NCBI GenBank assembly: GCA_027023025.1
Contig: JALVXB010000043.1
Span: forward strand, 1-64,000
DNA from: Caldisericaceae bacterium
GTDB lineage: Bacteria > Caldisericota > Caldisericia > Caldisericales > Caldisericaceae
Direction: 5' to 3'
DNA length: 64,000 nt
Part shown: piece by piece, positions 53,300-63,724 of the stretch
Layout: every line of letters begins with the position of its first letter
Numbering within the stretch: position 1 is the first letter of the stretch
Notes under the pieces: model-generated
Database searches by the model: none
What the model saw: the letters and a program-made list of their open reading frames with translations, nothing else
What the model was told of the DNA's origin: nothing
Made by a program: the position numbers and the translations under genes

Positions 53300-54763
53300 C
53301 TATTTGTCAATTTCGTCAGAAACGTAGAACTGTTCGATGTCTCCCCCGTTCTTTTTAAGGATTTCTTCTTTTTTCTTCTTGTATTCTTTCGTCTTCTTTG
53401 CAACATCAGGGAAGTCGTGTTCAAACACAGGACGCGAAAGTTTTTCCCACTCTTTGGAAAGTTTGTCAAGGTGTTTACCGACATCTTTGTACATATTTTC
53501 CAGTGTGCCGTCCGTACCTCTTACGCCTGGCAAAGAACCAATCTTTCTGAAGTAATCAGGATGGTCGACGAGCAAGCATACGCTGAGCAGGTTGTCAGAG
53601 TACGGCTGAAGCTTCTGGATTTCTTTGAAGAACGGAAGTTGTAGTGCTTCTTTCAGGGACATGTCGTTGATATTGCCCTGAGAGAGGTGAATGAATGCAC
53701 ACGGTTCAATTCCGCCGTCTGCCGTAATGTGAATGTATCTTCTTCCTCCTGCAAGGCATCCGCCGGTGTAAGGCCCGTCATTCCAGAAGTCTGCTGCAAA
53801 CAGAGGTTTAGTTGCCCTGATTTCGTGGATTCTATGGTAGGACTTAAGCCTCTGCTCTGGAGTAAGCATTAAACTGACATCAGGGTTTCTACCAATAGGA
53901 ATGTACTGGAAGTACCACGCAATTTTTGCACCTTTGTCTACCATAAAGTCAACGAATTCGTCGCTAAGAATTTCGTCGACATTCACGCTCGTTTCAGTTA
54001 CTGAGTACCCGAATGGTACGCCAGCTTTCTTCAGATTATCCATTGCCTTCATTACTCTGTCCCAGGCACCTTTACCTCTTCTCCAGTCGGTTTTCTCTTT
54101 GAACCCTTCTACGCTTATGCACGGCACGGCATTACCTGCATCTGCTAACTTCTCTGCGAACTTTTCAGTGATGATGGAACCATTCGTGTAGAACATAAAT
54201 GCCATGTCGTTGTGTTTTTTGAGGATGTCGAAGAGGTGCGGATACAGTGTTGGTTCGCCCCCTGAAAGTACGATGAAGTAAATACCCATCTCTTTCGCTT
54301 CTGTTAAAATCCTGTCAAGTGTTTCAAAGGACATCGTTTTTGCCTGATCGTACGATCCTGCCCAGCAACCAATACAGTTGTAGTTGCACTTCTCTGTGGG
54401 GTCAATAAGCATAAACCACGGCACATTTACTTTTTCTTTCTTCGTGTAGGCACGCTGTTTTGGAATTCCAATCCATGCAGCATTCACGACGAAGTTCTGG
54501 GCAAGTTTTCTTGCAACATCGGGACGCGTATCTTTAAGTAAATTGATTAAAAGGTGGATTCCTGGCCTGTCGTTTTCTGCAAGTTTTTTAATTCCGTTTA
54601 TCTGTTCTTTAAATACGGGGAGGAAAGAAAACTTATTTGCAAGTGCAGCAAGTGTATCAATTGCCTTATATACATTTCTTTCGGGATCTTTCTGCAGATA
54701 ATTCACAATACTATCAAGGGTCTTTGAAAGCACCAATCTTTTCGCATTTTCACCTAAACTCAT
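53300..54763 (-). CDS. Radical SAM protein with auxiliary cluster region
   Basis: 487 residues. A helical N-terminal extension of about 115 residues precedes LIDPTEKCNYNCIGCWAGSY with the CxxxCxxC cluster motif near residue 127. The GGEP SAM motif (VLSGGEPTLYPHLFDIL) and a C-terminal SPASM-like region with GGIEPCAFIHLSQG, CLAGGRRYIHI and VCLLVDHPDYF follow. Resembles large radical SAM proteins that modify lipids or peptides; no peptide precursor is visible. Downstream of a wHTH regulator and upstream of a flippase-like gene, so envelope-lipid chemistry is plausible but inferred. Confidence 0.82.
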   Translation of the reverse strand: MSLGENAKRLVLSKTLDSIVNYLQKDPERNVYKAIDTLAALANKFSFLPVFKEQINGIKKLAENDRPGIHLLINLLKDTRPDVARKLAQNFVVNAAWIGIPKQRAYTKKEKVNVPWFMLIDPTEKCNYNCIGCWAGSYDQAKTMSFETLDRILTEAKEMGIYFIVLSGGEPTLYPHLFDILKKHNDMAFMFYTNGSIITEKFAEKLADAGNAVPCISVEGFKEKTDWRRGKGAWDRVMKAMDNLKKAGVPFGYSVTETSVNVDEILSDEFVDFMVDKGAKIAWYFQYIPIGRNPDVSLMLTPEQRLKSYHRIHEIRATKPLFAADFWNDGPYTGGCLAGGRRYIHITADGGIEPCAFIHLSQGNINDMSLKEALQLPFFKEIQKLQPYSDNLLSVCLLVDHPDYFRKIGSLPGVRGTDGTLENMYKDVGKHLDKLSKEWEKLSRPVFEHDFPDVAKKTKEYKKKKEEILKKNGGDIEQFYVSDEIDK

Positions 54764-55782: not shown

Positions 55783-57969
55783 ATGGATGTAAAGGGAGCG
55801 GTTGAATCTGTAAGAAGCACAAAAGAGGGAAAGTTAATTGTAGTTAAAGACGGAAAGGGCACTTTTAAAGTGATCGCAGACGAAGAATACGACATTCAGC
55901 CGGGAATAAGTGTTTCTTTTATCAATGTAAAAGAAGAAAAACGCTTTCTTGGGACGACTTACAAAGTTACTCCTGAAAGCGTAGTTTCTACTTATACGAA
56001 TGTCCCGGTGCTTTACGAGGACCTAAGATATGCGCACTTTTGTGAGTATGCTCTTATTTTCTCGTTTTTTGGTACGCACAAAGAAATCCAAGAAAACAAG
56101 GAAGTTATGTTTTACAACGGTGCAAAGGGTAAATTTCAGGGAAACAGAATTGCAGAGTTTGCAAACAGATATCCAAAGGAGTTGCGAGGCAAATTTTCTT
56201 ACAGGCCTGTAATGTTCTCTGAAAAGTCCGGCGTACTTTTGCGAAGCATTTTACACTTTGGTAAGTTTCCAGTGGTTTTCGACGGAGACGAAACGAAAGG
56301 CATACTCGTTGCTTTGGAAGAAAATAAAAGTAAGTTCGTCACTCTTGACGAAGCGAGTGGAAAGATGAAAGAGCACTCAGTTACGCCAAAGGCCGTATCA
56401 GAAGTAATGTCGCGTAAAAATGCTTTTGCCAGAGAACTTTTCTCTCCTAATCTGAAAGAATTCTGGCAAAAGGATATCGAAAACGATTGTTACTTTGGGT
56501 GCCCTTTAAAGGAATTCTGCAGAAAGGTGCATAAAAATGACGAGAAAAAAGAGGAATTTGAACGCTACTTTGTAGATGCTGCTAAGGACGCTTTGAAGTA
56601 TCGCTCTATCCTGCTTAAAACGATAAAGAGTGGTGAAAACCCGCTGAGATCGTCCACGCGCGTGGTGCTAAAAGAAAAATTTGACGAACCTGATAAAAGT
56701 GTTTATAAACTCGGTATTTTAAGCAACGAGGCGGCAATTAAAAGTGGAGAAGACTTCCTAGTAAGTGAAAAACCTCCTCTTGAGCGAAGAGTATTTGCAA
56801 AAAGCAAGAGTGTAAGTTTTAGAGAGATTGTAGCAGAAAGCGCAGAAGGAATTCTTTCTCCAGAAAAGATATCGCCTCTTCCTCAGGTAGGCACGCACTT
56901 GTACAAAGGATTATTCCGATACCTTTATTCAAGTGTTTTTTCAGACGAATCAATAAAAAGTGCACAGGTTAAAGTAGGTGAAAATAGGCACTTTACTGAC
57001 GATAAGGAGCAGAACGAGGCAATAAATAAATTGTTGGGATTTTCTACTGCGTTTTGTCTGAAAGGCGAGTACGGCACGGGGAAAAAGTTCGTTTTAAGGA
57101 AAGCATTCAGCGAACTTTTACAGAGGGGTAGCACTGTGGGTGTTGCAACGGAGTCAAGGAAAGAAGAAGCAGAGCAATTTTTCAGGGAGACACTTTCTCC
57201 GTGGTTTGAAAAAGGCAAAATTTCCGTTTATTCTGTAAACGATCCTGCACTTTTCAGCAGAAAAGAACTATTTGACTATGTGGTGTTCTTATCCAACGGG
57301 ACGGTAGACGAGAAATTGGCAAAGTCAGTTATGGGACTCTCAAAAAACTTTATTCTCTCTTCGCCGGGGGATTGCGAATTCCTCGAAAGTCTACTGCCGG
57401 AATCTTCGAAAGCCGTATTAAAAACAGAGCATCGTTTTGGCGCACACATTCTACACTTCCTCCAACCCGTTTTATCTGACAAACTTCTGCAAAGTGACGA
57501 TAAAGAATTTAAAGTATTAAACAAAGAGAACATCTCGCCGCAGTTTATGGAAGTAGTAAACCCTGAAAAGTATGTGCAGGCAATTTATGTGAAAGGGCAT
57601 AATAAGGGTGTTAACAATCAATGGAATGTAGAGGAAGCCTCGTTTATAGTAGAGGCAGTAAAAGAATTCGTAAAAGCGGGCATTGAGCGCAGAAATATTG
57701 GGGTAATTGTCCCTTATGAGCGACAGAAAGCGTTGCTTGACGATTTATTTGCGGATTCAAAAATACCTGACATTCTCGTATCTGAACCCCAGGGTGCAGT
57801 GGAAAAAGATGTAGTATTTATTTCTTTTACGAATACGAAAAAAGTGGGCGGCGACTTCGTTAGCGAGTCCATGCTTAAGTCTGCGCTTACGCGGGCGCGG
57901 TGTAAACTGCTACTCGTTGGGCAGAAAGGTATATACAAAGGCTCAAAAGTACTTTCAAAACTTCTGTAA
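55783..57969 (+). CDS. Dna2-like SF1 helicase relative with degenerate ATPase motifs
   Basis: 728 residues. The N-terminal third holds four cysteines spaced like an Fe-S nuclease (C87 then C236-x3-C240-x5-C246), but no clear PD-(D/E)XK core. The C-terminal half has an SF1/Upf1-like layout: a Q motif (EQNEAINKLL), a Walker A-like GEYGTGKK (residues 428-435, Lys instead of Ser/Thr), FDYVVFLSNG at 497-506 where DEAx is expected, then RNIGVIVPYERQKALLDDLF, EPQGAVEKDVVFIS and KSALTRARCKLLLVG, which are good motif IV-VI matches. ATPase activity is doubtful. A GGAGGTG site precedes ATG 55783, and parB follows seven bases after. Confidence 0.7.
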   Translation: MDVKGAVESVRSTKEGKLIVVKDGKGTFKVIADEEYDIQPGISVSFINVKEEKRFLGTTYKVTPESVVSTYTNVPVLYEDLRYAHFCEYALIFSFFGTHKEIQENKEVMFYNGAKGKFQGNRIAEFANRYPKELRGKFSYRPVMFSEKSGVLLRSILHFGKFPVVFDGDETKGILVALEENKSKFVTLDEASGKMKEHSVTPKAVSEVMSRKNAFARELFSPNLKEFWQKDIENDCYFGCPLKEFCRKVHKNDEKKEEFERYFVDAAKDALKYRSILLKTIKSGENPLRSSTRVVLKEKFDEPDKSVYKLGILSNEAAIKSGEDFLVSEKPPLERRVFAKSKSVSFREIVAESAEGILSPEKISPLPQVGTHLYKGLFRYLYSSVFSDESIKSAQVKVGENRHFTDDKEQNEAINKLLGFSTAFCLKGEYGTGKKFVLRKAFSELLQRGSTVGVATESRKEEAEQFFRETLSPWFEKGKISVYSVNDPALFSRKELFDYVVFLSNGTVDEKLAKSVMGLSKNFILSSPGDCEFLESLLPESSKAVLKTEHRFGAHILHFLQPVLSDKLLQSDDKEFKVLNKENISPQFMEVVNPEKYVQAIYVKGHNKGVNNQWNVEEASFIVEAVKEFVKAGIERRNIGVIVPYERQKALLDDLFADSKIPDILVSEPQGAVEKDVVFISFTNTKKVGGDFVSESMLKSALTRARCKLLLVGQKGIYKGSKVLSKLL

Positions 57970-57976
57970 GTAAAAA

Positions 57977-58744
57977 ATGGGCACATCCGAATACGATAGC
58001 AAAGAAGTCGTTTCTATTCCAGTAGAGAAAGTCGTCCCTTCACCGTTTCAACCGCGCATGCGCTTTGACGAGAAGTCTATTCTTGACCTTGCAACCTCTA
58101 TCGAACATCTTGGCGTAATCCAGCCTATCGTCGTGCGGAAGAAAAGTGGCTTCTTTGAACTCATTGCAGGAGAAAGGCGACTTGAAGCAGTAAAGTTTTT
58201 GAAGTGGGATAAAATACCCGCGATCGTTAAAAATGTTTCTGACATAGATGCTTTCCGTATGGCGGTTTCAGAAAACCTGAAAAGGGAAGATCTTAATCCG
58301 CTTGAGGTTGCAGGTGCAATTAAAAACATGAAAGAGCGTTTTCACCTGACCGACAAACAGGTTGCAGAAATGCTTGGAATGAGCAGGCCGCAGGTAACGA
58401 ATTATCTTAGAATATTGAAGCTTCCAGAAGCAATTAAAAGTGCTCTGCGCAACGGTGAAATTTCCTTTGGACACGCGCGGAGTTTGCTTTCAGTAAGTGA
58501 AAGTGACGCAATTAAACTCTACAGAAAAGTCGTTAAATCCCGTCTTTCCGTGCGTGATACGGAAAAACTCGCAAGGGAACTCTCTCAAAAAGAAAGCCTT
58601 ATTACAAAAACAGAGGAACTTTTAACGAAGGCACTTGGGACGAAAGTGAAAATCGTTGGAGGAAAAGACAGAGGCGAACTTCGTATCTCCTACTTTTCTG
58701 AAGACGAACTTGCCGAAATCGTAAAAAAACTTGCAGAAAATTAA
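57977..58744 (+). CDS. parB: ParB/Noc-family DNA-binding protein
   Basis: 255 residues: ParB N-terminal domain (SIPVEKVVPSPFQPRMRFDE, VIQPIVVRKK, ELIAGERRLEAVKFL with the GERR CTPase motif, ENLKREDLNPLEVAGA) and HTH (LTDKQVAEMLGMSRPQVTNY). Binds parS-like sites and spreads on DNA. No parA lies nearby; instead it directly follows the Dna2-like gene. It could be the chromosomal ParB or part of the DNA-processing locus. No parS (TGTTTCACGTGAAACA) is seen in the window. Confidence 0.9.
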   Translation: MGTSEYDSKEVVSIPVEKVVPSPFQPRMRFDEKSILDLATSIEHLGVIQPIVVRKKSGFFELIAGERRLEAVKFLKWDKIPAIVKNVSDIDAFRMAVSENLKREDLNPLEVAGAIKNMKERFHLTDKQVAEMLGMSRPQVTNYLRILKLPEAIKSALRNGEISFGHARSLLSVSESDAIKLYRKVVKSRLSVRDTEKLARELSQKESLITKTEELLTKALGTKVKIVGGKDRGELRISYFSEDELAEIVKKLAEN

Positions 58745-59794: not shown

Positions 59795-59814
59795 TATCGG
59801 TTGGAGGTGATGTG

Positions 59815-60330
59815 ATGAAAAAGGCTCTCCTTATCGTCGATATGCTGAACGACTTCGTCGATAAAAAAGGCGCTTTGAAGGTAGAGGGTGCAGAAGAGAT
59901 CGTACCGTACATAAAAGGTTTTAAGGTGGCATTTAAACGGGAAGGCGGAAAAGTTTTCTACCTCTGCGATTCCCACAAAGAAAACGACCCAGAATTTGAC
60001 CTGTGGCCGCGGCACTGCGTGGAGGGCTCGTGGGGTGCGGAAGTCGTTTCTGCGTTGAAACCCGACCCTGACGACACAGTGATTAAAAAGACTACATACT
60101 CTGGTTTTTACGGCACGGACCTCGACGAAAAACTCAAAGCGAAGGGGATAGACACGCTTTACATTACGGGTGTTGCAATGAACATATGCGTGCACTATAC
60201 GGCTGCAGATGCAAGAATGCGCGGCTACGATGTGATCGTTCCGCTTATGGGTGTAAAAGGGCTTACCAAAGAGGACGAGGATTACATGAAAAAGCAGTTT
60301 GTAAGTGTACTAAAAGTAAAACTCATATAA
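59815..60330 (+). CDS. Isochorismatase-family hydrolase (nicotinamidase-like)
   Basis: 171 residues from ATG 59815 (GGAGGTGATG site; in-frame GTG at 59812). Catalytic triad: Asp in LLIVDMLNDFVDKKGAL, Lys in VIKKTTYSGFYGTDL, Cys in YITGVAMNICVHYTAADA. The DSHKENDPEFDLWPRHC metal-binding segment favours nicotinamidase over isochorismatase. Next to a NAD-kinase-family gene, it suggests NAD turnover or salvage. Eleven bases separate it from the following wHTH gene. Confidence 0.85.
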   Translation: MKKALLIVDMLNDFVDKKGALKVEGAEEIVPYIKGFKVAFKREGGKVFYLCDSHKENDPEFDLWPRHCVEGSWGAEVVSALKPDPDDTVIKKTTYSGFYGTDLDEKLKAKGIDTLYITGVAMNICVHYTAADARMRGYDVIVPLMGVKGLTKEDEDYMKKQFVSVLKVKLI

Positions 60331-60340
60331 AGGGGGAAAG

Positions 60341-61006
60341 ATGAAAACAAAAGAAGAGATGTTGAAACTTATCAGGGAGTCCGGTAAAAAAGGAATGACA
60401 TTAACACAGCTTTCCGGAACGAGAAAACGGAGCAGCGCGGAATACAAACTCACAAAACAATTTCTCGCAGACCTTGAATCTCAGCACCTTATCGTGAAGT
60501 CTGGCAGCAGATACTACCTTGCAGGCGTCAAGGGCAAAAAAACACTAAAGAAAAAAGTAAACTACATCACAAAGGAGGAATTTGAAGAAGTTTTGCGAGA
60601 AGTATACAAAGACCTTTCTGCTTTGAAAAACGAAATTGACCGCGTTTACGAATATGTGGACGAAGTGTTCCTTATAACGCGCAAAAAAAGTGCAGGAAAA
60701 GCAAAAAGTGAACAGGACTTTCCCGATGAAGAAGAAATGCGCATTGCATACGACAACATCAACGAGAGAGAAAATGCTGGCGATTCCGTTTCAATTGCAG
60801 AGTTTAAAAGAGAGTTAGAGAAGATGGGGTTTCGTTTTACGGACGAAGAGATGGACAAAAAACTACTCGAAATGGACAAAAACGAGGTTATCTATCTGCA
60901 GGAAGCGAATAACCCCGAAACGCTTGAAGAAAGTGAGCGAAAGAGAGGCATAGACGATAAGGAAAGAGGTTTTCTCTTTTACATTACATGGATAAAAAGA
61001 CCTTAG
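60341..61006 (+). CDS. Two-winged-helix hypothetical protein, first gene of the ATPase/nuclease cassette
   Basis: 221 residues. The N-terminal about 70 residues look like a winged helix (MLKLIRESGKKGMTLTQLSG, KQFLADLESQHLIVKSGSRY), followed by a helical EF-EEVL region and a charged linker. The C-terminal part (ISIAEFKRELEKMG-like, DEEMDKKLLEMDKNEVIYLQ) looks like a second wing domain. No family recognised. It overlaps the next gene by 19 bases, so the two are translationally coupled. Probably a DNA-binding or adaptor subunit. Confidence 0.6.
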   Translation: MKTKEEMLKLIRESGKKGMTLTQLSGTRKRSSAEYKLTKQFLADLESQHLIVKSGSRYYLAGVKGKKTLKKKVNYITKEEFEEVLREVYKDLSALKNEIDRVYEYVDEVFLITRKKSAGKAKSEQDFPDEEEMRIAYDNINERENAGDSVSIAEFKRELEKMGFRFTDEEMDKKLLEMDKNEVIYLQEANNPETLEESERKRGIDDKERGFLFYITWIKRP

Positions 61007-62958
61007 CGGAAAAGTTCAAAGCCCTTTCACCGTACAAAAACAGTATAGTAAGGACTCCGTGGGACAGCGAAGTCGTTGATGTAAAGACGATCCACAGCAG
61101 GGCGTTTGAAAAGCTCACTGATGCACTGGATACGGTAAAGTCAAGCAGGGCGTCGCTTATTTTTGTGCTTCAAGGCGAGCCGGGCTCTGGAAAGTCGCAC
61201 TTTTTGTGGCGCGTTGCGCGCAGCGCTGAAAGTAAAAAATTTCTTTTCGTGAACATAGTGCCCTATACATACATAAAGCGAATTACATTTTACACGATAC
61301 TTGAAAGTGCAGTGGAAAGCCTTGAGAAGAAACATCCGAATTTGCGCTCTCGCCCGATCGACCACATCATTGGTTATGCTTTGCAGGAAGGTGCACGGCT
61401 GATAAACACAAAGGCACTGCACGATGCTACCGCAGCGTCCATCGTGGGGATGATCAGGGACAACAAAAAGATGCCGTTCGTCGCAAAAAGTCTTTTTAAC
61501 AGCATACCTGAGAACAAAAAAGGTCTTATTCTTAATGTAATGGCACGCAAACTGGCCGCGCGTTATGTGGAATATCCCCGTTACTTTTTTACTCTTTTGC
61601 TTGCCCTTGAAGATAAAGAGAAAGCGCCTCTTGCACTTGAACTGATGAAAGGCGAAACGCTTGGCAAAAAAGAACTACAGAAGATAGGGCTTGACGAATG
61701 CTTTGCACTTGGCGAGAGAGGAGCATTTAATGTATTGTGTTCGTTGATAAAGTTTTCTCCGTTCCCATTTATTATTTCAGTAGATCAGGTGGAGACGCTG
61801 GACAGGCATCTGGATTCAGCAGGTATAGAGAGGTTTTTTGAAAACATTCTCAGTATATACAACAATACGAATAACTCGTTGTTTCTTCTTTCTGTGCAGA
61901 CACAAACATTTAAAAAGTGGACGAAGTTTCTGGCAAAAGACATTCTGGACAGGCTTTCAGAGAGGACGACGATTTTACCGCTTAACCTCGAGCAGGCAAA
62001 GGAAATCGTAAAAGCGCGCAACAGGCACTACTTCAGTAAAATTGGCACTTTGCCTGACGATCCATACTTTCCTTTTGCTGAAAGCCAGATAGAAACTCTC
62101 TACAGGAAGGGTAATAAAAACCCGAGAAAACTCATTAAAGCGCTGGACTACCTGCTGGAAAGCGGGGAACTTACCGAACAGAAAGATACGGTTCAGGGTA
62201 GTTTTAAAAATTACATCCGAAATGTAGAATACAGTGACAGTGAGTTTAGAAAAGAATTTACGGATTTACTTGCAAAAATCGTAGAAGGGAGCGATGTCCT
62301 GAAGGAAACTCCTACATACGCAATTCTGAAACTCGGAAAAACGGGATTTGCAGTGAATAATTCGAAGCATTCTTTGTACAGTTGTGTCAGCCACTTGTCG
62401 CGATTTATCAGGAAGCGCACGATTAGATTTGCACTACTTCTAAGAAGCAACAGTTTGCCGGTGCGTGCTACTGCGAAGAAGACGAATGAACTGCTAAGAA
62501 AGCACGGAATAAAAGTCGTTTACTATTCCACAGAGGTAGGCGAAGTCCTTATTACGGTTTCGAAGATGCTGAGAGATGCAGAGTCTGGAGATCTGGACAT
62601 AGAAATAAAAGAGGTGGAACGATTTGCCAGGCAAAAAATTGGAGAAGCACTTCCAGAAGTTGCGCGGACAGTTTTCGCAGATATCGGTGAAGTGTCCCAA
62701 AAAGAGAGCGTGAGAAATAGAAAGCCTGTTACTGCTAAAACGAAGAATAACTCCAAGAAAAACGGCCTGAATGCGGTTGAAAGGCAAATAGAAAAAATCC
62801 TTGAAACGCGCAAAATTATTTCTTACGACAAACTTTTAAGTCTTTTAAAGAAGAATGCAAAGGAAGTTGACGCTGCGCTTTTTAACCTTGCGAACCGTAA
62901 TAAAGTAAGAATTATTAATAGAAAGTATGGAGAAAAGTGGGTCTTTAGCAGACTGTGA
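60988..62958 (+). CDS. P-loop ATPase (AAA/STAND-like) with C-terminal winged helix
   Basis: 656 residues. Walker A LQGEPGSGKSHFLWR (G63-S70), Walker B FIISVDQVE (261-269) and a sensor-1-like LFLLSVQTQ (298-306) mark an ORC/AAA-type ATPase with a helical insert between. Arginine-rich KNPRKLIKALDYLLE near residue 370 resembles sensor 2 or a lid. Residues about 460-560 form a possible nuclease-like alpha/beta domain (FALLLRSNSLP, GIKVVYYST), and the last 65 form a winged helix. No exact family recalled. It overlaps its neighbours on both sides. Confidence 0.72.
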   Translation: MDKKTLAEKFKALSPYKNSIVRTPWDSEVVDVKTIHSRAFEKLTDALDTVKSSRASLIFVLQGEPGSGKSHFLWRVARSAESKKFLFVNIVPYTYIKRITFYTILESAVESLEKKHPNLRSRPIDHIIGYALQEGARLINTKALHDATAASIVGMIRDNKKMPFVAKSLFNSIPENKKGLILNVMARKLAARYVEYPRYFFTLLLALEDKEKAPLALELMKGETLGKKELQKIGLDECFALGERGAFNVLCSLIKFSPFPFIISVDQVETLDRHLDSAGIERFFENILSIYNNTNNSLFLLSVQTQTFKKWTKFLAKDILDRLSERTTILPLNLEQAKEIVKARNRHYFSKIGTLPDDPYFPFAESQIETLYRKGNKNPRKLIKALDYLLESGELTEQKDTVQGSFKNYIRNVEYSDSEFRKEFTDLLAKIVEGSDVLKETPTYAILKLGKTGFAVNNSKHSLYSCVSHLSRFIRKRTIRFALLLRSNSLPVRATAKKTNELLRKHGIKVVYYSTEVGEVLITVSKMLRDAESGDLDIEIKEVERFARQKIGEALPEVARTVFADIGEVSQKESVRNRKPVTAKTKNNSKKNGLNAVERQIEKILETRKIISYDKLLSLLKKNAKEVDAALFNLANRNKVRIINRKYGEKWVFSRL

Positions 62959-63724
62959 CTTCTCGGTAAGTGATGTCGTTACTGCTTTTAAGTGTCCATT
63001 GCAATTCTACTTTTCGAGAAAAGGAATAGTTGCCCACTTTTACTACGGTGGAAAAAGTGTGGGAAGTTTTGTCCACAAAGTGCTTTCTGAATTTACAGAC
63101 TTGCTCGTTACCCGTACGCTGTTCGAGAGTGAAAACGACTTGAATGTCGTTGAAAATACACTCTACAGAAGTTTTTACAATGTGGCAATAAAGAGTAAAA
63201 GTTACAGAACGAACCTGGAAGATGCCTGGCAGTACATTAAGTCAATAGGTGCATACTTTGAAGGTATTACGGCAGGGAAAAGCACTTCTGAAATTCGCGA
63301 CATGTTTATTCTTTCTGAGCGCTCGTTCTCGGTGAACTTTTTTGGCACGCAAATATGCGGCCGTTTTGACCTGCTGTTGCGCGATGAGAGAAAAATCAGG
63401 ATTGTAGATTACAAAACGCGCGACAGAGATCCTGAAGTAGATGCCGTGCAAATTGCGCTATACAAGTACGCCGTAAAGCAAATTACTGGTGTAGAGGCAG
63501 AGCCAGTGCTTCTTTACATTCTGGACGGTGAGTTAAAAGAAGAAGTGTTTACAGAAGAAGAATATTCACTCGTTATCTCTGGCATTCGAAAGCAGATTAA
63601 AGACATGAAAGATTTTCTTTCGGGTAGGAAAGTCCCAGAACGGACAGTCGACCGTGCTCTTTGCAATCACTGTTCTTTGAAGACGAGTTGCAAGGTGCTG
63701 CGTAAGAAGTTTTTTGGTCTATAA
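62927..63724 (+). CDS. Cas4/RecB-like PD-(D/E)XK nuclease with 4Fe-4S cysteines
   Basis: 265 residues matching the Cas4/AddB-nuclease plan: C23 in FKCPLQFYF, H50 in GSFVHKVLSE, GRFDLLLRD (D148), IRIVDYKTRD with D161 and K163 as (D/E)xK, QIALYKYAV (QxxxY), and C246-x2-C249-x5-C255 at the C-terminus, giving four cysteines for a 4Fe-4S cluster. All catalytic residues are present. The ATG lies 32 bases inside the end of the ATPase gene. No CRISPR array or cas1/cas2 is near, so it is not an ordinary Cas4. It likely works with the ATPase in DNA resection or defence. Confidence 0.8.
   Translation: MEKSGSLADCDFSVSDVVTAFKCPLQFYFSRKGIVAHFYYGGKSVGSFVHKVLSEFTDLLVTRTLFESENDLNVVENTLYRSFYNVAIKSKSYRTNLEDAWQYIKSIGAYFEGITAGKSTSEIRDMFILSERSFSVNFFGTQICGRFDLLLRDERKIRIVDYKTRDRDPEVDAVQIALYKYAVKQITGVEAEPVLLYILDGELKEEVFTEEEYSLVISGIRKQIKDMKDFLSGRKVPERTVDRALCNHCSLKTSCKVLRKKFFGL

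Follow-up and report, generated by a model that had tools for sequence, protein, structure and literature searches.

Inactivated helicase-nucleases are represented on the SF1A side by RecC and AddB, in which a dead motor has been turned into a reader of Chi. They are UvrD-type subunits of the RecBCD and AddAB enzymes, in which an inactivated SF1 helicase is joined to a RecB-family-like domain that is dead in RecC and live and Fe-S-bearing in AddB. Recognition of Chi by the inactivated SF1 helicase domains of AddB and RecC takes place while ssDNA is scanned (PMC4824097). An Fe-S-stapled nuclease is common to AddB and Dna2, and the nuclease residues of Dna2 have been located in its structure as His164, Asp278, Glu299, Lys301 and Gln314 (PMC4716839). 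The protein described here resembles RecC and AddB in combining an inactivated SF1 helicase with a RecB-family-like domain, but its fold is of the SF1B Dna2/Upf1 type. Nothing relevant on an inactive Dna2 or on a ParB-helicase pair was found among the literature matches listed.

The window analysed is a stretch of 64,000 nucleotides from a Caldisericaceae bacterium (GCA_027023025.1, contig JALVXB010000043.1), whose genome assembly comprises 1.66 Mb in 43 contigs. An open reading frame with exact coordinates and length encodes a protein of 728 aa, which the original prediction had described, from the letters and the open reading frames, as an inactivated Dna2. The features considered below are as follows; the boundaries of the nuclease-like and barrel domains are approximate.

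55783 to 57969, + strand: apparently doubly inactivated protein of Dna2 architecture, 728 aa (open reading frame, homologues, structure)
55783 to 55998, + strand: N-terminal OB-fold domain, residues 1-72 (model compared with OB folds)
55999 to 56637, + strand: nuclease-like domain apparently lacking catalytic residues, residues 73-285, with the putative Fe-S cysteines inside
56041 to 56043, + strand: putative Fe-S Cys87 (sequence alignment)
56488 to 56520, + strand: putative Fe-S cysteines C236, C240 and C246 (sequence alignment)
56638 to 56937, + strand: barrel/linker domain, residues 286-385 (aligns up to Dna2 residue 578)
56980 to 57402, + strand: RecA-like domain 1 (RecA1), residues 400-540, with degenerate catalytic motifs (model and alignments)
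57064 to 57087, + strand: P-loop GEYGTGKK, residues 428-435, with a second lysine in place of Thr/Ser (alignment)
57403 to 57966, + strand: RecA-like domain 2 (RecA2), residues 541-728, with motifs IV and VI kept (PF13087; profile match to Dna2/Upf1/IGHMBP2)
57977 to 58744, + strand: ParB2, a second, ParA-less ParB/Noc-type protein, 7 nt downstream (profile matches, gene order)
60341 to 63724, + strand: cassette of wHTH, AAA ATPase and Cas4-like nuclease, probably a separate system (profile matches, gene order)

The sequence-based family assignment is confined to the C-terminal part of the protein. PF13087 (AAA_12) was matched at residues 540-715 (E 2.2e-17; 63.7 bits against a cut-off of 27) and in 15/15 homologues, while the Pfam scan outside this region returned sub-threshold matches only. 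The nearest NCBIfam family is that of the IGHMBP2-type helicases, far under its cut-off, and PADLOC gave weak matches only, to RecA2 and the P-loop region. The RecA2 profile matched Dna2 with an E-value of 2.3e-17 and, by hhalign, live helicases with an E-value of 2.2e-23; motifs IV and VI of this domain are shared with IGHMBP2/TIGR00376 and other bacterial Upf1-like SF1B helicases. Enzymes of the IGHMBP2/TIGR00376 type, however, carry the canonical GPPGTGKT, DExxQ and GDxxQLPP motifs and leave the OB/nuclease part of the window protein unmatched.

The remainder of the protein was recognised by structure. The full AlphaFold model, obtained with 11 sequences, is of moderate confidence (mean pLDDT 71) and poor at residues 551-612 and in parts of RecA2. 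Its top Foldseek match is mouse Dna2 (E 1.9e-25), on which VIA-align superposed model residues 3-553 over Dna2 residues 46-830 (Z 16.4, 522 residues, rmsd 5.9). IGHMBP2 ties in VIA-align (Z 16.2), but was aligned only from residue 252 onward. A separate model of the N-terminal 400 residues (pLDDT 79) matched Dna2 with a Z of 16.4 over 349 residues (model residues 3-379, 4.8 A), and the next-best match covers the OB fold only (Z 10.9); the region from the OB fold through the nuclease-like domain to the barrel thus resembles Dna2 independently of the rest. A direct sequence search of this half against PDB chains gave no credible match, the likeness being visible in structure only. Residues 1-71 of the model resemble many OB folds (Z about 9-11) and their alignment with Dna2 begins at its residue 46. 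The window protein, a bacterial protein of 728 aa against about 1060 for mouse Dna2 (5EAN/5EAW/5EAX), therefore displays the OB fold, the four-Cys, Fe-S-spaced nuclease-like domain, the barrel and RecA1 in the Dna2 order by model (residues 3-553), followed by RecA2 by sequence profile. With this fold recovered, and with motifs II and III absent from the alignment to live relatives, the comparison with Dna2 and Upf1 bears out the description of the protein as an inactivated Dna2, both catalytic sites of which appear to be lost throughout the family.

None of the five nuclease residues of mouse Dna2 has a conserved counterpart in the family. Across residues 100-222 no conserved Asp, His, Glu-X-Lys or Gln set was found, and E107, K137 and K172 are the only conserved charged residues, in agreement with the original prediction that a clear PD-(D/E)XK core is missing. 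The absence of any conserved candidate indicates that the nuclease site is lost family-wide. A search with PF08696 returned no match in the organism's own genome. The four cysteines of Dna2/Cas4-like spacing noted at the outset were found at C87, C236, C240 and C246, framing the nuclease-like domain as in Dna2. Wherever the region is present, they are conserved across the sampled genera with the exception of g7 (Caldisericum), in which all four are gone together. The window protein probably carries an Fe-S cluster, which, judged from the alignment, is dispensable in Caldisericum.

The helicase motifs show a comparable loss. Residues 428-435 form the Walker A sequence GEYGTGKK, in which the usual Walker lysine is the first K and the Mg-binding Thr/Ser has given way to the second, and LSNG occupies the DExx position, both as originally described. 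The canonical GKT/S in Walker A and DE in Walker B of Dna2 are therefore missing, as are the DExx of motif II and the GDxxQLPP of motif III. The claim that motifs IV-VI are well kept holds for motif IV (VPYERQ) and motif VI (ALTRARC) but not for motif V (QG.E), whose Gln-Gly hardly any homologue retains; the GKK Walker A and the loss of motifs II, III and V set the protein apart from eukaryotic Dna2. The P-loop itself is nevertheless invariant. GxxGxGKK is present in all 15 homologues, which are about 25-90% identical to the window protein, and the only 5 invariant residues among the 141 positions of RecA1 (G428, G431, G433, K434 and K435) fall within this 8-residue loop (hypergeometric p about 3e-5). 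As these sole invariants of RecA1 include K435, the P-loop is under strong constraint though hydrolysis looks impossible. A lysine at the Mg2+ position may permit the binding of nucleotide or phosphate without catalysis.

The arginines R551 (motif IIIa, kept outside g7) and R704 (motif VI, kept), which in Upf1/Dna2-type helicases touch the gamma-phosphate, are retained in most rows together with the Walker lysine K434, as would be expected if the protein were a divergent ATPase or helicase that stays active through catalytic residues placed elsewhere. Such activity is nonetheless highly improbable, since RecA1 has no invariant acidic residue but only the P-loop Gly and Lys, the near-invariant D498 belongs to an 'FD' upstream of Walker B and is not the catalytic Asp, and Thr/Ser is replaced by Lys throughout. 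The genus g7 has lost the Q motif and R551 besides the Fe-S cysteines, so that a general requirement for the cluster or for tight ATP binding can be dismissed; this pattern in the g7 orthologues suggests a stepwise loss within the family. The g7 sequences L013-L016 and L018 retain GKK despite the loss of the cysteines, the Q motif and the motif IIIa arginine.

Homologues were identified in 16 of the 18 sampled Caldisericaceae genomes, mostly at full length where the contig allows. The contig of one of the other two (G002) starts within the NAD-kinase-like gene, which in the organism's own genome comes after ParB2, and that of the other (G008) stops within the gene for an FAD-dependent oxidoreductase, which in most relatives points its 3' end towards the Dna2-like gene. 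Both gaps thus coincide with contig ends where the gene is expected, and the protein is probably near-universal in the family. The closest named relative at the locus is a Caldisericales MAG (90% identity over the protein). No genome from other families of the same class was found to contain a homologue, and a survey of 386 genomes across bacteria gave no full-length homologue outside the family, the outside matches being confined to RecA2. A viral origin was considered and rejected, as no relative was found on viral contigs. The bacterial PF08696 matches examined were AddB-like or of the UvrD-RecB type, together with one canonical Dna2-like helicase-kinase-like fusion; none has the present architecture. 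In the fusion (L178:1901-5965), a bacterial protein of 1355 aa, the canonical Dna2-like helicase is joined to a RecB-like nuclease (YELK) and to a protein-kinase-like domain.

Degenerate motifs may also arise in a decaying pseudogene or from an assembly artefact, an explanation with practically no probability left and already refuted by these data: the frame is uninterrupted in 16 genomes (some copies being cut by contig ends), the P-loop is invariant and, against the sister genome G001, dN is 0.049 and dS 0.41 (dN/dS about 0.12), with each domain below 0.3 (about 0.08-0.28). The motif features described above reappear in homologues from independent assemblies, all 15 of which carry GKK where canonical Walker motifs would have pointed to a sequencing artefact in the present copy. 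The window protein is, therefore, a maintained pseudo-enzyme, a product of neither decay nor artefact.

The gene directly behind it encodes ParB2, which shares the N-terminal GERR and ENxxR (CTP-binding motifs) and the HTH with Noc and Spo0J ParB (E about 1e-43) and is, by motif, a putative CTP-clamp. Unlike these proteins, it has no adjoining ParA and lies immediately behind the dead Dna2; a separate ParA-ParB1 pair is encoded on another contig of the same genome (G000:C40). ParB2-type matches (E about 1e-37 or better) were obtained in 7 genomes of 4 genera, directly behind the Dna2-like gene in 7/7, and the rows concerned form one side of the tree (support 94/94). In g3, g4 and g7 no ParB2 lies behind the Dna2-like gene and the FAD gene comes next instead. 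The adjacency by itself is modest to weak evidence of an interaction, as gene order around the locus is largely shared among g1, g5 and g6. Searches for parS-like sites in the window gave one match with 2 mismatches, which is within chance, and no enrichment near the gene; consensus parS was present in 4 of the 18 genomes and not found in the organism's own, and a search for shared palindromes upstream of the Dna2-like gene returned nothing consistent. On the other side of the gene, the radical SAM protein encoded at 53300-54763 is 95% identical in G005 as against 39% for the adjoining Dna2-like gene, and is either unusually slow or transferred.

Further downstream, positions 59812-63724 hold a conserved four-gene unit of nicotinamidase, wHTH, AAA ATPase (with a C-terminal winged helix) and Cas4-like nuclease, which occurs in several genera of the family at differing genomic sites. 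The original prediction suggested that the Dna2-like protein might be a scaffold for the Cas4-like nuclease and ATPase of this cassette. In its favour are the same-strand run behind the Dna2-like gene in its own genus (g1), the same layout suggested by contig-end context in g2 and g5, and the PD-(D/E)XK and Cys motifs retained in P0003. Co-occurrence, however, speaks poorly for this proposal. The cassette was found in 10 family genomes besides that of the window, usually with the nicotinamidase gene, but in g3, g4, g7 and g9 it lies at a different locus or on a different contig, and it was detected in none of the five g6 genomes, of which three are 94-95% complete and all encode the Dna2-like protein. 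A dedicated scaffold role for the cassette is, therefore, improbable, and by gene order ParB2, which the original prediction left unmentioned, would be the closer partner. On the same contig, outside the window, an FRG-like protein (G000:C43:68397-69197) shows about 89% identity across g1, g2 and g5, against 43-60% for its neighbours and 83% for the next gene, which suggests recent transfer.

The likeness to RecC and AddB also raises a role in resection, in which the protein would replace the missing AddAB/RecBCD by scanning ssDNA while UvrD and a stand-alone RecB-family nuclease act. Searches of the organism's own genome with PF13361 and PF12705 found no RecB/AddA-type partner. As its single UvrD_C protein is UvrD/PcrA-sized and its only two PDDEXK_1 proteins are both about 270 aa, no enzyme of RecB/AddA size is present, which leaves room for such a role, as do the Chi recognition by dead helicase domains and the stapled nuclease cited above (PMC4824097; PMC4716839). 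Other families of the class (e.g. f3), however, also have a single UvrD and yet lack this protein, and the gene was not seen to be linked to that of UvrD or of the universal 268-aa RecB-like nuclease (G000:C25:70602-71309); this role is accordingly rated as unlikely. The genome contains no second AAA_12 protein and hence no live Dna2/Upf1-like helicase for the protein to assist.

To the observed fold similarity, motif loss, conservation, purifying selection and gene order, the analogy with AddB and RecC adds a plausible role in DNA binding. A scaffold or sensor is the best-supported function, as the chemistry is lost but the tunnel is retained, together with the basic domains (RecA2, the barrel and the nuclease-like domain). 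We consider the window protein to be, with reasonable probability, a maintained pseudo-enzyme of Dna2 architecture that binds DNA and perhaps nucleotide without hydrolysis, serves in chromosome maintenance and may act with ParB2. Such a protein would most likely be incapable of DNA cleavage and of ATP hydrolysis, and would most likely use the Dna2 tunnel and its basic domains to bind ssDNA or a junction. Its P-loop may hold nucleotide or phosphate, with the second lysine standing in for Mg2+. The gene is probably co-transcribed with ParB2 in many genera, and this second, putative CTP-clamp protein may act together with the Dna2-like protein, itself a proposed non-hydrolysing scaffold or sensor in chromosome maintenance. 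A more elaborate proposal, in which a nucleotide-gated, non-hydrolysing, Dna2-derived DNA clamp and a dedicated ParB CTP-clamp constitute a chromosome-maintenance module seen only in Caldisericaceae, is rather doubtful.

The invariant GKK P-loop provides a simple, testable hypothesis, namely nucleotide binding without Mg2+ or hydrolysis, and the neighbouring ParB2 offers a concrete candidate for a partner. If the favoured reading is true, the evolutionary step known from RecC and AddB would have been taken independently on the SF1B (Dna2-type) side, by a counterpart whose two active sites are dead, whose OB domain is positioned as in eukaryotic Dna2, and which an entire bacterial family has conserved.
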